Assembly: GCA_944389945.1 (NCBI GenBank) | Contig: CALXOF010000003.1 | Span: 1-64,000, forward strand | Origin: an uncultured Kiritimatiellota bacterium | GTDB taxonomy: Bacteria > Verrucomicrobiota > Kiritimatiellia > RFP12 > DVOR01 | Direction of reading: 5' to 3' | DNA length: 64,000 nucleotides | In this document: one piece after another, positions 14,574-51,110 of the stretch | Layout of the letters: every line of letters starts with the position of its first letter | Position numbering within the stretch: position 1 is the first letter of the stretch | The notes under the pieces: generated by a model | Databases searched by the model: none | Seen by the model: the letters and a program-made list of their open reading frames with translations, nothing else | What the model was told of the DNA's origin: nothing | Position numbers and translations under genes: made by a program

Positions 14574-14671
14574 CTTTCTGAGACCCTATAGTGGTCCGAG
14601 GTCAACCACTATAGGGGTCGGGGTCGAGACCCTATAGTGGTCCGACCCGAAACCCTTAGGGGTCCAGAAAG
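14574..14671 (+). repeat. 98-bp palindromic CTATAG element, copy 1
   Basis: CTTTCTG opens and CAGAAAG closes a 98-bp unit. Inside, GAGACCCTATAGTGGTCCGA occurs twice, 46 bases apart, around a central CCACTATAGGGG, which is the 12-bp palindrome CCACTATAGTGG in copy 3. A same-length copy lies at 51013-51110 and an inverted, diverged copy at about 34400-34497. The outer ends form an imperfect inverted repeat. Confidence 0.85.
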
Positions 14672-34399: not shown

Positions 34400-34497
34400 G
34401 CTTCGCGGACCCTTAAGGGTTTCGGGTCGGACCACTATAGGGTCTCACCCTCGACCACTATAGTGGTTGACCTCGGACCACTATAGGGTCTCGGAAG
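34400..34497 (-). repeat. 98-bp palindromic CTATAG element, copy 2 (inverted)
   Basis: The inverted counterpart of 14574-14671. It keeps three ACCACTATAG boxes, including a perfect CCACTATAGTGG, and the CCCTTAAGGGTTTCGGGTCGG arm. Its outer ends have diverged (GGTCTCGGAAGG in place of GGTCTCAGAAAG). Confidence 0.8.
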
Positions 34498-37968: not shown

Positions 37969-38919
37969 TCACGACAAACGGAAGAGGGAGGAGACGGACT
38001 GGTTGTTATGGATGCGGGTGATCGCCTCGGCCAGGAGGGGGGCGACGGAGAGCACCTTGATCGACGGCAGGCCCGCGATGGTCTCATCGAGGGGAATGGA
38101 GTCGGTCGTGATGAGCTCTTCGATGAGCCCGTCGTTGGCGCGCAGGCGGTCGATGCCGACCTGCGTGAGGGGGATGTGGCTGACGACGGCGCGGACGCTC
38201 TTGGCGCCGTGCGACTTCAGCAACTTCGCCGCGGCGCAGAGGGTGCCGCAGGTCGTCGTCATGTCATCCACCATGATCACGTCACAGCCGTCGACGTCGC
38301 CGACGACGCTGAACGCATCCACTTCCGCGGCACCCAGACGCTGCTTCGCGACGATGGCCAGGCCGGTGCCCAGCATCTGCGAATAAGCGTAAGCCGTCTT
38401 GACCCCGCCGGTATCGGGGGAAACCACAAGCGGCTTATCCAGCTTCATTTCGCGCAGGTATTTCACCATTACCGGCGCGGCGTGAAGGTGATCCACGGGA
38501 ATATCGAAAAAGCCTTGAATCTGCTGCGCGTGCAGGTCCATCGTGAGCACGCGGTTGGCGCCGGCAGCCACCAGGAGGTTGGCGACCAGCTTGGCGGTGA
38601 TCGGCACGCGGGGCTGGTCCTTGCGGTCCTGGCGCGCGTAGCCATAATAAGGGAGGACGGCGGTGATGCGGTCGGCCGAGCCGCGGCGGGCGGCGTCGAT
38701 CATGATGAGCAGCTCCATGAACATTTCATTGGGCTGCTTGCAGATGGGCTGGACCAGGAAGAGGTCGGCGCCGCGCACATTGTCGCTGTACTTGACGAAG
38801 GTCTCGCCGTCCGGGAAGTGCCGGATGTCAATGGCCCCGAGCGTCGTGCCCATGCACGCCGCAATCTTCTCGGCCAGGGGCCGGTTCGCGCTTCCGGAGA
38901 AGACTTGCAGGTTTTCCAT
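37969..38919 (-). CDS. prs: Ribose-phosphate pyrophosphokinase
   Basis: 316 residues. It makes PRPP from ribose-5-P and ATP, the RpiB product pathway. It has FPDGETFVKYSDNVRG, the flexible loop YYGYARQDRKDQPRVPITAK, and MDLHAQQIQGFFDIPVDHLHA. The ribose-phosphate loop reads VDDMTTTCGTL instead of the common DDMIDTGGT, keeping the first two Asp but replacing the later Asp. It starts 26 bases downstream of the tRNA-Gln gene. Confidence 0.95.
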   Translation of the reverse strand: MENLQVFSGSANRPLAEKIAACMGTTLGAIDIRHFPDGETFVKYSDNVRGADLFLVQPICKQPNEMFMELLIMIDAARRGSADRITAVLPYYGYARQDRKDQPRVPITAKLVANLLVAAGANRVLTMDLHAQQIQGFFDIPVDHLHAAPVMVKYLREMKLDKPLVVSPDTGGVKTAYAYSQMLGTGLAIVAKQRLGAAEVDAFSVVGDVDGCDVIMVDDMTTTCGTLCAAAKLLKSHGAKSVRAVVSHIPLTQVGIDRLRANDGLIEELITTDSIPLDETIAGLPSIKVLSVAPLLAEAITRIHNNQSVSSLFRLS

Positions 38920-38933
38920 CGCGTTCCCTTTCT

Positions 38934-40094
38934 TCAGACGCTGCATGGTTGCCCGACATGGATTCGAACCATGACTATGGGCGTCAAAGGCCCGTGTGCT
39001 GCCATTACACCATCGGGCAGCGTCTGTGTGCACGCCCGCCAACAGCCGGCCAATGCCGGATGCGCAAGCGCACGCTCCCCCTCCGCACGGGACCCGACCA
39101 GCCCGAAAACCGTCGCGCCGCTGCCGCACAGGGTCACCCCCATGCAACCCGCCGCCCGCAACGCTTCCGCTGTCTTGGCGACGCCGGGGAAAAGCCCCAA
39201 ACAAGGCTCCGAGAGGTCGTTGATGACCGCCCCGGCCACATCCGTGGGCCTTCCCATCCGAAGGAAGAAACACAAATTATCCCATAACTCACCCGCCTTT
39301 GTCAAGTCGGGCGAGTTGCTGATTGGCTGATTCGCTGATTGGCTGATTGGTTGGCCCCCTACGGGGGCGTTAAGGAAGTTTGGAAGTTTGGAGGCTTGGA
39401 AGTTTGGTGATTGCGGTGGGGCGTCGCCCCACACCCCTTCGGAAGAGGGCTCCGCCGGTCGCCCCGAAGGGGCGTTCTCTGTTCTCTGTTCTCCGTTCTC
39501 TGTTCTCTGGTGCTTGGGATGCCCGGCATCCCAAGCACCATAAACCTGCGGTGTGGGGCAGTGGGAGCCGTCGTTGGCGAGGACGAGCCAGAGGGGCGGG
39601 GCGCCATCCATCGGGAGGCGCTCGACGGTTTCGCCGCGGCCGGTCATCCGCACGGTGCCATCCAAGAGAAAGAGGGGGACGTCTGAGCCCAGCTCCGCGC
39701 CAAGGGCGCAGAGGCGTTCGCGGGAGAGCCCCAGGGTCCAGAGGTCGTTCATCCCGCGCAGGACGGCCGCGGCGTCGGTGCTGCCGCCGCCCAGTCCGCC
39801 GCCCAGGGGAATGCGTTTGGTGATGCGGATACGCGTGGGCAAGGGGCGCCCCACCTCGCGTTCCAAGAGACGCACCGCGCGCACCGCCAGGTTGCGTTCG
39901 ATGTCCGTCGGCAGAGCCCCAAGGCCTACGCCGTCATCCACCATCTCCAGCGTGGTCGTCTCGGCCCGGTCCAACTCCACGTCGTCGCCAAAGCCCAAGA
40001 GCGCCACCACAGAATCGAGCGCATGAAACCCATCCGCACGCGTGCCCAGCACGCGCAGCCCCAGATTGACCTTCGCCGGCGCAAATACTTTCAT
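38934..40094 (-). CDS. ispE: 4-diphosphocytidyl-2-C-methyl-D-erythritol kinase with an in-frame repeat insertion
   Basis: 386 residues, about 100 longer than usual. It is the GHMP kinase of the MEP isoprenoid pathway: N-terminal APAKVNLGLRVLG, ATP loop IPLGGGLGGGSTDAAA, and C-terminal GVTLCGSGATVFGLV. Residues ~190-260 (39314-39525) are encoded by intergenic-type repeats. GARAACR units read as RTENGEQRTEN, TTGGARGY units as PNFQASKLPNF, and GCTGATTG units as QPISQSANQPIS. The last ~28 residues run through the tRNA-Gln gene before the stop. Core motifs on both sides are intact, so it may still work. Confidence 0.88.
   Translation of the reverse strand: MKVFAPAKVNLGLRVLGTRADGFHALDSVVALLGFGDDVELDRAETTTLEMVDDGVGLGALPTDIERNLAVRAVRLLEREVGRPLPTRIRITKRIPLGGGLGGGSTDAAAVLRGMNDLWTLGLSRERLCALGAELGSDVPLFLLDGTVRMTGRGETVERLPMDGAPPLWLVLANDGSHCPTPQVYGAWDAGHPKHQRTENGEQRTENAPSGRPAEPSSEGVWGDAPPQSPNFQASKLPNFLNAPVGGQPISQSANQPISNSPDLTKAGELWDNLCFFLRMGRPTDVAGAVINDLSEPCLGLFPGVAKTAEALRAAGCMGVTLCGSGATVFGLVGSRAEGERALAHPALAGCWRACTQTLPDGVMAAHGPLTPIVMVRIHVGQPCSV
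38946..39019 (-). tRNA. tRNA-Gln (anticodon UUG)
   Basis: The minus strand folds as a tRNA. The acceptor pairs TGCCCGA with TCGGGCA, the T-arm is CATGG-TTCGAAT-CCATG, and the anticodon loop CTTTGAC gives UUG. The discriminator A is followed by an encoded CCA (38948-38946). The lowest anticodon stem pair is C-A. The gene lies wholly inside the 3' end of the ispE frame, same strand, so it must be cut from a shared transcript. Confidence 0.93.
39314..39540. repeat. Repeat array inside the ispE coding sequence
   Basis: Reading the plus strand: GCTGATTG units (39314-39350), TTGGARGY units (39375-39408), a GTGGGGCGTCGCCCCAC hairpin (39416-39433), GCCCCGAAGGGGC (39461-39473), TTCTCTG/TTCTCCG 7-bp units (39474-39509), and a 15-bp perfect inverted repeat TGGTGCTTGGGATGC/GCATCCCAAGCACCA (39508-39540). 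The arm nearest the array codes for part of the IspE sequence itself. The same order of modules occurs in noncoding DNA. Confidence 0.85.
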
Positions 40095-40112
40095 AGCTGT
40101 CCTTTCACCTTT

Positions 40113-40121
40113 AGTATAGCA
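40113..40121 (-). promoter_or_regulatory. Extended -10 promoter of the ispE-rplI operon
   Basis: TGCTATACT (box 40118-40113) on the minus strand. AAAGGA lies between it and the ispE ATG at 40094. No clear -35. Confidence 0.55.
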
Positions 40122-40380
40122 AAGGGCGGCTAGTGTGATGAAACCGCAGATTACGCCGATTAAAGCAGATTAGGGGCCGGCTACCGCCGGCAGGACTGCC
40201 AGAATAGATTGGAAATCACAAAGGACACAAAGGGAAATCGGCTGATTAGCTGATTAGCTGATTAGCTGATTGGTGGATGTGGGGCGCTGCCCCACGCCCC
40301 GGCAGGGAGAAGTTCTCCCTGCACCCCCGGCACGTCTGCGACGTGCCAACAGGCGACGCGATAGGACATATAGGACATAT
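40122..40380. repeat. Intergenic repeat mosaic
   Basis: No gene. It holds a GCAGATT plus GGCCGGCTACCGCCGGC module (40145-40200), a CACAAAG 9-bp run (40215-40235), CTGATTAG units (40240-40272), and the inverted three-hairpin module (40278-40346). Confidence 0.75.
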
Positions 40381-41041: not shown

Positions 41042-41965
41042 TCAGAAGGAATAGGAGAGGGCAACGCCGCCATAGGCCACGAAGTCGTCATCGCCGACGA
41101 TGTCGCGGGCGGTGGAGTCGAGCTGGTAGTGGCAGCCGGCGTAGGGGGCGATGGTGAAGCCCTCGAAGGGAGAATAGGCGAGCTCGATGGAGGCGAAGCC
41201 GTCGCGGAACATGAAGGACTCGTTCTCGCCGAAGTCGGCCTCGTTGCGGTCGCGGTTGGCGATGGCGAAACCGAGGGTCGGGGTGAGGGTCAGCATGCCC
41301 TCCTCCAGACCGAAGCAGTCGGCGCCGAGGTCGAAGTCGTGGGCCACGGAGAAGGTGGCGTAGATACCGCCCTTGCCGGTTTCCTCACCCTCAGGGCCCT
41401 GGCGGACGAGCTGGTATTCCAGCGTGAAGGCGGGCTGGAGCCAGAGGTCGGGGAGGCCGAGCTCGAGATTGAGCCACTGGGTGTCGGGGTTGGAGTAGCC
41501 GGCGAGGGGCTTGTTGCAGGCGCGGGGGTGATATTCGTAGGTGTAGTTGATGGAGGTGTCGAGGGTGGAGCCGAGGAACTCGGTGGTGTCCCAGTTCTTG
41601 GAGAGGGTGATGCCGGGGGTCAACTCCTGATACTTCCAGCGGCGATCGGCATAGCCGCCGTCCTTGGCGCCGTAGTTGGTGGTGTCGAAGATGGCGTCGA
41701 CGGAGAAGGTGAGGGTGAACCACTCCTCGTTGGCGATGGAGAGCTCGACGGAGGGCGTGACGATGGCGTGGGGGTTGTCGATCAAGCCATAGGTGAGCTG
41801 CTTGGAGGTGAAGTCCAACGTGGCCCCGCCGCCGATGGTCCAGCCGGAGCTTTCTTCGCCTTCGGCCGCGTACGCGCCGCAGGCGAGGAGAACAGAGAAC
41901 AGAGAACAGAGGACAGTCCGCCCGGCAAGCGGGCGACGGATGGATTTGCGGGAGGATTGCTTCAT
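41042..41965 (-). CDS. Outer-membrane beta-barrel protein with a repeat-derived signal peptide
   Basis: 307 residues. Alternating hydrophobic strands with aromatic girdles and a final Phe (VALSYSF) indicate an outer-membrane barrel. Examples are WTIGGGATLDFTSKQLTYG and GFTIAPYAGCHYQLDS. No ligand is identifiable. Residues 10-27 of the signal peptide (the LCSLFSVLL core included) are encoded by 41886-41938. That stretch is a GARAACR repeat run plus the CCCGGCAAGCGGGCGACGGA composite found between genes elsewhere. The signal still has a basic start, hydrophobic core and AYA cleavage site. Confidence 0.82.
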   Translation of the reverse strand: MKQSSRKSIRRPLAGRTVLCSLFSVLLACGAYAAEGEESSGWTIGGGATLDFTSKQLTYGLIDNPHAIVTPSVELSIANEEWFTLTFSVDAIFDTTNYGAKDGGYADRRWKYQELTPGITLSKNWDTTEFLGSTLDTSINYTYEYHPRACNKPLAGYSNPDTQWLNLELGLPDLWLQPAFTLEYQLVRQGPEGEETGKGGIYATFSVAHDFDLGADCFGLEEGMLTLTPTLGFAIANRDRNEADFGENESFMFRDGFASIELAYSPFEGFTIAPYAGCHYQLDSTARDIVGDDDFVAYGGVALSYSF

Positions 41966-45944: not shown

Positions 45945-47522
45945 TTAGGCGAGTCGTTCGAAGGCTGTGCCGATGAGCTGGCGAGTCTTACCATCGAAGG
46001 AGAGGCCGATGAGGAAGACCTCTTTGCCGCTGTGGCGGTAAGGCTCGGCGTACCCCCTTTCCTTGATTTGGTTGAGAGCCTGTTGGGGCGTGCCGTCGAC
46101 CTTGAGCTCGAAGATGAAGACGCGTTCGGACGTCTCGGCGACCAAGTCTGCACGCCCCTGGGCTTGTCGGTCCTCGGCGGTGACGCGGAAGGAGCCATCG
46201 GAAGTCAACAGGACATAGAGGATGCGCTGATAGGAGAACTCCTGAACACTATCCTCTTGAGGGCCATAGGCGAGGTGGGCGTAAAGGTCGGAGAGACGTC
46301 CGAGAAAGGTCGTGACCTCACCCTTCATTAGCGCCAAGCAGGTGAGATTGCGGTAGTCGTTGTCTTTCTTTCCGGCAAACTTCTGAACGAGCTGGGTGTT
46401 AAAGGCGCGGCGGACCTCTTCGTCCGGGATACCAAGGGTTAAATAAGGGTCACGAAAATCCTTGATGGTGAGGTAGCCTCCTTGATAGAGCATGGCAACG
46501 GGGCGGAGATTCTCCAATCCGCAAACGTCCAAGTCCTCCTCGGTGACACCCTCGATGTTCTCGTAGTCCTTCTCGGCGAGTTGATTGTTTGTGAAGTAGT
46601 TGATAACGACAGAGGTCTGCCCGGAGCGAATCCAGGTGCCGGAGAAGTAGCTTTTCTGTGCGCCAAGGGTCTTGGCAACGGCATAGGGATTGTAGACCTT
46701 GCTCTCGCAATCTTGAGAGAAGCGGTAACCATTGTACCACCAACGGAACTTATCGCGATAGTCTTCGTAGGAGAGTTTCATGATGTCGGCGTGACGGCGC
46801 ATAGCCTTGCCGAAATACATCTCCAACTCGCTATCTGTGTAACCGAGAAACGTAGCATAGCGCTCGTCCATCGTCAGGTCATTGAGGTTATTCAGCGCCG
46901 AAAAGACGGAGAGCTGTGTGAAACGCGTCACACCCGTCATCATCATAAAGCGGATATTCGCGGCTTTGTTCTTGATCTGGATGTAGAAATCCGAGAGCTC
47001 CTGCCGGATGTCCGCAGCAAGCTTGGTGTCGAACAAAGCGTGACTCACCGGCGCGTCATATTCATCGATGAGAACGACCACGGGCTTGCCAGACTGTTCC
47101 GCGAGCGCACTGATGGCCCGGCGGAAGTTTGCTCCCGGGGAAATCGTTGGGTTCCAAGGCGCCTTCACGGCGGTGAAAGTCTCCTCAAGACAGGTCTTGA
47201 AGTCCGCCATGAAGGCCTCAAAGGTCTTGGACTGAATCCCGGCGAAGTTGAAATGCAAGATGGGATACTCCGCCCAGTCGTAGTCCAACTTGTCGATGGC
47301 AAGGCCTTTGAAGAGCTCGCGTTGGCCGCGGAAGATACACTCCAACGTGGAGAGCATGAGGGACTTGCCGAAGCGCCGCGGGCGGGAGATGAAGAAGAGT
47401 TTCCCGCCAATGTCACTGCCATTGACCAAGCGATAGAGTGGCTCGGTCTTGTCCACATAAATGTACCCCTTCTCCCGCAATTCACGAAAGTCGGCGGTGT
47501 CTTGGGCAATTCTCGGTTCCAT
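45945..47522 (-). CDS. AAA-ATPase-like / PD-(D/E)XK nuclease superfamily protein
   Basis: 525 residues. The N-terminal AAA-ATPase-like domain (PF09820 type) has DTADFRELREKGYIYVDKTEP, the P-loop variant SRPRRFGKSLMLS and a Walker B VVVLIDEYDAP. The C-terminal DUF1703-type PD-(D/E)XK region has GRADLVAET...RVFIFELKVDG (D and ExK) and YAEPYRHSGKEVFLIGLSF. Such proteins are abundant in gut bacteria and occur in many copies per genome; their role is unproven. I start at the ATG at 47522 with AAGGAG upstream; the open frame beyond runs into repeats. Confidence 0.88.
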   Translation of the reverse strand: MEPRIAQDTADFRELREKGYIYVDKTEPLYRLVNGSDIGGKLFFISRPRRFGKSLMLSTLECIFRGQRELFKGLAIDKLDYDWAEYPILHFNFAGIQSKTFEAFMADFKTCLEETFTAVKAPWNPTISPGANFRRAISALAEQSGKPVVVLIDEYDAPVSHALFDTKLAADIRQELSDFYIQIKNKAANIRFMMMTGVTRFTQLSVFSALNNLNDLTMDERYATFLGYTDSELEMYFGKAMRRHADIMKLSYEDYRDKFRWWYNGYRFSQDCESKVYNPYAVAKTLGAQKSYFSGTWIRSGQTSVVINYFTNNQLAEKDYENIEGVTEEDLDVCGLENLRPVAMLYQGGYLTIKDFRDPYLTLGIPDEEVRRAFNTQLVQKFAGKKDNDYRNLTCLALMKGEVTTFLGRLSDLYAHLAYGPQEDSVQEFSYQRILYVLLTSDGSFRVTAEDRQAQGRADLVAETSERVFIFELKVDGTPQQALNQIKERGYAEPYRHSGKEVFLIGLSFDGKTRQLIGTAFERLA

Positions 47523-47820
47523 GGCGCTACTCCTTGCACACAGTATAGCATAAGGGCGGCTTCGCCGCCCCGGAGAACGGAAAACAGAGCGCGCGGTAAG
47601 CGCGCGACAGGTGGAGCCGCTGAGAGAGTGTGGAAGGTTTGCCCTGCGGGGCTGACACGAAGAGGCACGAAGAACCACGAAGAAGCACTGCCAGTGTGGG
47701 GCGTGCAGGTGCGAAGCACCAAACCTTCCACGGCTACCGCAGATTACGCAGATTTTGGCAGATTTGGGGCCGGCTACCGCCGGCAGGACTGCCAGTTCGT
47801 TTTAGATTATAGTGCACTGG
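47523..47820. repeat. Repeat mosaic and promoter of the AAA-ATPase gene
   Basis: The minus-strand extended -10 TGCTATACT (box 47547-47542) serves the gene at 45945-47522. The rest is repeats: GARAACR units (47573-47590), a GCGCGGTAAGCGCGCGAC composite (47590-47608), CACGAAGA 9-bp units (47655-47692), and a GCAGATT module with GGCCGGCTACCGCCGGC (47740-47795). Confidence 0.7.
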
Positions 47821-50859: not shown

Positions 50860-51012
50860 TAAGAGAACAGAGAACAGAAAACAGTGAACAGAGAACGCCC
50901 CTGCGGGGCGACCGGCGAAACCACCCCGAACCTAAAAATAGCCTATCTTTCATAGCATTTCAATGACTTTTGACAAAACTGCACGCCAGTTCCCATGGAG
51001 GGCGTAAGGGGG
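50860..51012. repeat. GARAACR repeat composite and spacer
   Basis: No gene. A 7-bp-period run (50862-50896) is joined to CCCCTGCGGGGCGACCGGCG (about 50897-50916), the same composite as inside ispE. The remaining bases show nothing recognisable. Confidence 0.75.
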
Positions 51013-51110
51013 CTTTCTGAGACCCTATAGTGGTCCGAGGTCAACCACTATAGTGGTCGGGGTCGAGACCCTATAGTGGTCCGACCCGAAACCCTTAGGG
51101 GTCCAGAAAG
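51013..51110 (+). repeat. 98-bp palindromic CTATAG element, copy 3
   Basis: Same length as, and nearly identical to, 14574-14671. It has CTTTCTG and CAGAAAG ends, two GAGACCCTATAGTGGTCCGA boxes and a perfect central CCACTATAGTGG. It ends 41 bases before the GNAT -10 box. Confidence 0.88.

Follow-up and report, generated by a model that had tools for sequence, protein, structure and literature searches.

The window, by which we mean the whole 64,000-nt stretch of DNA that was analysed, carries ispE on its minus strand as a single open frame of 386 amino acids in the ORF listing (38934-40094). The enzyme is usually essential, and the product shows the features of its family, a GHMP kinase fold and the IspE family profile: PF00288 and PF08544 both match in profile searches, and TIGR00154 gives a split match whose pieces, over residues 2-199 and over the C-terminal domain, are separated by a gap. 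An in-frame insert of intergenic repeat modules, about 218 nt long, lies at about 39309-39526 (minus strand), and directly downstream of it is a sigma70-type promoter-like site, TTGACA-18-GATAAT with an extended -10 (39276-39305, minus strand). The 3' end of the frame contains a tRNA-Gln(TTG) gene (38946-39019, minus strand), the sole match in an Rfam search. The two genes overlap on the same strand; in the genus the ispE frame reads through the entire tRNA and gives the C-terminus LPDGVMAAHGPLTPIVMVRIHVGQP, and among the order-level relatives examined, ispE stops 14 or 43 nt inside the tRNA gene or past it.

An earlier sequence-only reading had placed intergenic modules in frame inside ispE. 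TRF for the arrays and the alignment breaks against relatives for the edges (39306-39308 on one side and 39527-39550 on the other) bore this out at coordinates close to those it had given. Read 5' to 3' on the coding strand, with every part on the minus strand of the window, the region begins with a perfect 15-bp palindrome (39508-39540) that adjoins a heptamer array and whose 5' arm consists of native codons (YGAWDA). The heptamer array, (AGAGAAC)n with GAGAACR units, encodes QRTENGEQRTEN (39474-39509) and is followed by a GC hairpin, CGCCCC-TTC-GGGGCG and then ACCGGC (39460-39474), by GAAGGGGTGTGGGGCGACGCCCC, by an array of CCAARCTT octamers of the TTGGARGY family that encodes PNFQASKLPNF (39374-39407), by a second GC hairpin, GCCCCC-GTA-GGGGGC (39354-39368), and by an array of CAATCAGC octamers of the GCTGATTG family, whose stop-free strand reads QPISQSANQPIS (39318-39350). 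IspE codons 196-259 read QRTENGEQRTEN...PNFQASKLPNF...QPISQSANQPIS, and PNFQASK and LPNFLNAPVGGQPISQSANQPISNSPDLTK are among the peptide stretches encoded by the insert, a hydrophilic linker just as it had been described. Folding predicts separate local hairpins and no end-to-end fold, with z-scores of -3.9 for the 246-nt region and -8.8 for the palindrome.

The flanking GHMP-kinase parts had been called intact, and besides the profile matches this agrees with an AlphaFold2 model, which has the GHMP fold and in which nearly all insert residues (198-266) have a pLDDT below 50. The top Foldseek matches of the model are IspE crystal structures, the flanking fold reaching a TM-score to the target of 0.84, and in the M. 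abscessus structure about 16 residues bridge the points that flank the insert. The modelling gives an intact fold with a disordered insert, and we infer that the enzyme remains functional.

The modules in ispE have many counterparts in the host genome. In a 464-kb sample TRF found 241 arrays, whose units, 7-10 nt long, fall into about eight families. Although 83% of it is coding, a 1.24-Mb sample yielded 405 arrays, of which 371 lie outside coding segments and 34 overlap them. Array density is 2.7-2.8 per kb in tandem and divergent spacers and 1.06 per kb in convergent ones. The heptamer pattern is not a product of chance, because it has 145 matches in the genome against 0 for the reversed control. 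A left-abutting hairpin accompanies 57 of 86 heptamer arrays (1.3% in shuffled flanks), and the 49 distinct stems among these hairpins mean that the pairing is kept while the sequence varies. On the right a second hairpin is present in 67 of 86 (6% in shuffles); its standard form is the CGCCCC-TTC-GGGGCG with ACCGGC that is also found in the insert. Several long unique palindromes adjoin other arrays.

A genome-wide search with the ispE insert found matches at 57 or more further sites. The top one, the intergenic C11:58189-58311, covers insert nucleotides 25-153 in identical module order with 78% identity over 129 nt, and an intergenic example in the window (about 50862-50917) matches at 93%, which confirms the earlier statement that the composite order is the one seen in noncoding DNA. 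Local slippage within ispE, in place of copying from intergenic modules, would suit tandem repeats, which are able to expand in this way; we regard it as very improbable, because the insert combines several unrelated unit families with hairpins, in the intergenic composite order and at that level of identity. Two further observations concern repeats. At one intergenic site (50863-50916 in the window; L120 near 8059) the module strings of the host and its nearest relative diverge past a common start, and two other members of the clade described below (G008 and G004) have no modules there, which points to fast module turnover. A repeat family with 23-nt units, for example GAGACCCTATAGTGGTCCGAGGTC, occurs at 14580-14665, 34427-34492 and 51019-51104 of the window.

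Only two of the 405 arrays have coding sequence on both sides, those in ispE and in a lipoprotein linker (C1:95891-96376), and no conserved enzyme other than IspE is interrupted by arrays in the surveyed sample; this survey covered about half of the host genome and used home-made gene calls on metagenome-assembled genomes. The suggestion that modules enter genes and are tolerated at loops therefore stands as regards the in-frame insertion and does not stand as a general tendency, since the case is exceptional. Arrays also read into the ends of genes. The heptamer array at 41888-41916 encodes TVLCSLFSVL, the hydrophobic core of a signal peptide-like region in an ORF at 41042-41965 (minus strand), similar N-terminal read-ins are found at C6:77321-77845 and C6:31272-32732, and an LspA-like gene (C11:13420-13929) has a C-terminal array tail.

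We aligned IspE with 15 orthologues of the same genus. The loop has 78 amino acids in the host (G000) and 11-22 in ten of the 15 other orthologues; it has 118 in the nearest relative (G005), 54 in G008, 46 in G006, 36 in G004 and 22 in G001. The DNA of the relatives aligns at 85-95% up to 39306-39308 and picks up again at 39527-39550. Orthologues that lack exactly this segment had been named as the proof of an insertion, and the comparison shows that the segment was inserted relative to the relatives. Because the window was taken from a genome assembled from a metagenome, misassembly had to be weighed, together with the reading of the segment as an old IspE domain. We consider either of these hardly conceivable: the independent assembly of G005 has a homologous but different in-frame insert, and ten relatives have none, so that neither of the two objections foreseen in the sequence-only reading applies.

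The nearest relative is 98% identical to the host ispE outside the loop, and its insert has the palindrome, the heptamer array and the hairpin region in common with that of the host. Additional modules in it are a TCTCCTGTA 9-mer array and another octamer array, and the CAATCAGC array is missing from it; the two inserts differ by four alignment gaps of 30, 51, 21 and 18 nt, all in frame. The hairpin region is all that G001 has in common with the host insert, G004 has this region together with a decayed CAATCAGC stretch, and G006 has only a decayed octamer array. The insert is thus layered, as judged from these comparisons, with an older hairpin part common to several species and younger species-specific modules. 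Support of 98/99 unites G000, G005, G004 and G008 in one clade; G006 belongs to another supported group, so at least two histories are likely. Module-bearing IspE loops are restricted to genomes carrying intergenic arrays, and when matches to two octamer families are counted, six genomes reach five or more, precisely those with long or module-bearing loops (kinship uncorrected). Long loops also go with a higher load of intergenic modules (Mann-Whitney p 0.0016 for 6 against 10 genomes, without kinship correction), and in G006, whose modules belong mainly to the TTGGARG family, the IspE loop contains a decayed array of that family.

Comparisons other than that of the nearest pair give dN/dS values of 0.09-0.19 for the part of ispE before the insert and 0.17-0.29 for the part after it (the value of 0.59 for the C-terminal part of G000 and G005 is based on very few changes). 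These ratios show purifying selection on both halves of ispE. The dS of ispE falls sharply past the insert (38937-39275), to about 0.2-0.6 from 0.8-1.1 before it, which would be consistent with a constrained leader for tRNA-Gln-prs.

The promoter-like site has 11 of 12 consensus matches and is the only such site found in 38900-40200; it lies about 260 nt upstream of tRNA-Gln and about 360 nt upstream of prs. TTGAC and the 18-nt spacing before a RAYAMT hexamer are present in all 16 genus members, while the spacer sequence varies. The Leu264 codon is TTG in 16/16 (12% genome use) and the Thr265 codon is ACA in 15/16 (3.4% genome use; 0-5 of 14-16 at other conserved Thr positions), and IspE has no further conserved Leu or Thr position at which these codons are fixed. 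The Leu-Thr pair at the putative promoter is also conserved as protein. The codon alignments show conservation of the promoter-like hexamers at the codon level, from which we infer that the ispE-internal promoter is active. In enteric bacteria, prs has a long leader that extends into the neighbouring gene upstream. A literature search for an ispE-internal prs promoter found nothing usable.

The insertion site had been described as a loop. It is a disordered loop, as described, though not merely that, for it also adjoins this conserved internal promoter-like sequence. Among promoter-like sites near gene starts, an array lies within 200 nt upstream in 15 of 33 and downstream in 2, an asymmetry imposed in part by the genes that lie downstream. 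Given that arrays elsewhere also lie upstream of promoters, the ispE loop may be regarded as intergenic-like DNA, the usual niche of the modules, and a loop in that position would account for the near-uniqueness of the ispE case. The promoter-adjacent position thus probably explains why ispE was hit. A different reading is that a neutral or selfish insertion entered a permissive loop, as in the Rickettsia palindromic elements, and that the nearby promoter is coincidental. The insert is disordered, hydrophilic and quickly evolving, as such an insertion would be; a 218-nt composite has an about 18% chance of an open frame, hence some survive by chance; and the insert in the lipoprotein linker, which has no known promoter, suggests that a promoter is not required. 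We nevertheless hold this reading to be unlikely, because 11/12 promoter-like sites occur inside only two genes in 363 kb of genes, ispE among them, and because no other conserved enzyme in the sample is interrupted by arrays. The modules could also be functional and selected, tuning or insulating tRNA-Gln-prs transcription, for example through hairpins acting on ispE read-through. The strength of the hairpins and the position of arrays upstream of promoters elsewhere in the genome would fit such a role, which seems to us distinctly improbable given that sister species show a rapid turnover of module content and that in most of the genus this promoter-like site stands without modules.

The explanation we consider probable as a whole is that mosaic modules were copied into the ispE loop upstream of an internal promoter for tRNA-Gln and prs. 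In a subclade of this Spyradenecus-like genus, intergenic mosaic modules would have been copied into ispE between its N-terminal part and its C-terminal GHMP domain, where the target segment would be both a permissive disordered loop and the DNA directly upstream of the conserved internal promoter. Selection would have purged frame-breaking copies, and within the loop modules would have been gained, lost and decayed in multiples of three. Module identity, module order and frame-preserving turnover are shown by the alignments.

The palindrome with its native ispE 5' arm and the long unique palindromes at other arrays suggest fold-back template switching as a possible copying route. The view that the right arm is a wholly new inverted copy of native codons is weakened by G004, which has related codons at that position (GAC GCG GGG CGC CCG); a perfected pre-existing quasi-palindrome is therefore as likely as a new copy. 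Two candidate drivers were considered and set aside. A RAYT/Y1 transposase was not found, a search for PF01797 giving no match in G000 or G005 (genomes 92-95% complete). Genes of the AAA-ATPase_like/PDDEXK_9 type (PF09820) number 35 in the host (45945-47678 in the window and about 34 elsewhere), 26 in G005 and 0-8 in other genus members, and genomes of the genus with more copies tend to have a higher module load (Spearman 0.81, related genomes taken as independent); they are not enriched beside arrays and hence are a lead only. No clean empty/filled intergenic pair with a target duplication was found, and G005 contigs C1 and C2 had no syntenic overlap with the host-genome sample.

A literature search for a Kiritimatiellota repeat family gave nothing usable. 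The closest known kind appears to be the Rickettsia palindromic elements (RPE), which, like the Wolbachia palindromic elements, are intergenic families also found in frame in conserved genes at tolerated positions and with strong stem-loops (PMC3767692; PMC2229807). The likeness lies in the mode of insertion, a repeat family both intergenic and in frame within a conserved gene, and is judged from descriptions of the elements. RPE are 100-150 bp palindromic elements in many genes, whereas the host has a mosaic of tandem 7-9-mers, hairpins and palindromes in almost one gene, and its insert is not a single element folding end to end. Unlike the Rickettsiales, the host belongs to the PVC group, in the same genus as Candidatus Spyradenecus, and its insert stands beside an internal promoter-like site. 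The MITE-like repeats ERIC/IRU, RU-2, RU-3 and NEMIS are small intergenic repeats that have been joined in frame to ORFs (PMC2229807); most have terminal inverted repeats and target duplications. The heptamer repeats TAACTGA of Beggiatoaceae and STRR of cyanobacteria are short, tandem, largely intergenic and near gene starts (PMC4679880). The host repeats resemble them in being short, tandem and concentrated in intergenic DNA, but have different units and combine several unit families with hairpins in composites. REP/BIME/REPIN are likewise mosaic intergenic elements with palindromes, in their case with RAYT, whose Y1 (TnpA_REP) transposase is the one not found in G000 and G005. Perfect inverted repeats within coding sequence, with template switching proposed, are known from Nematomorpha (PMC6649704); those are mitochondrial and without array modules.

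We raise only tentatively, as a possibility that we ourselves rather doubt, that the modules form a new class of multi-family intergenic mosaic, which would spread without a known transposase, build or extend palindromes from flanking target DNA, and prefer promoter-upstream sites, including one inside a usually essential gene, where it would be forced into protein.

What is new here is that the insert adjoins a sigma70-type promoter-like site conserved at the codon level in 16/16 genus members, so that in a few closely related gut bacteria one stretch of DNA would be both protein-coding and promoter-flanking "intergenic" DNA. The locus offers, within one genus, a clean case of noncoding repeat DNA turning into protein in a conserved enzyme, with empty, partial and filled states, and a testable reason for the insertion site, namely that one coding segment is at the same time promoter-upstream DNA. 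Members of the genus could reveal stepwise how such inserts begin, grow, hold frame and decay.
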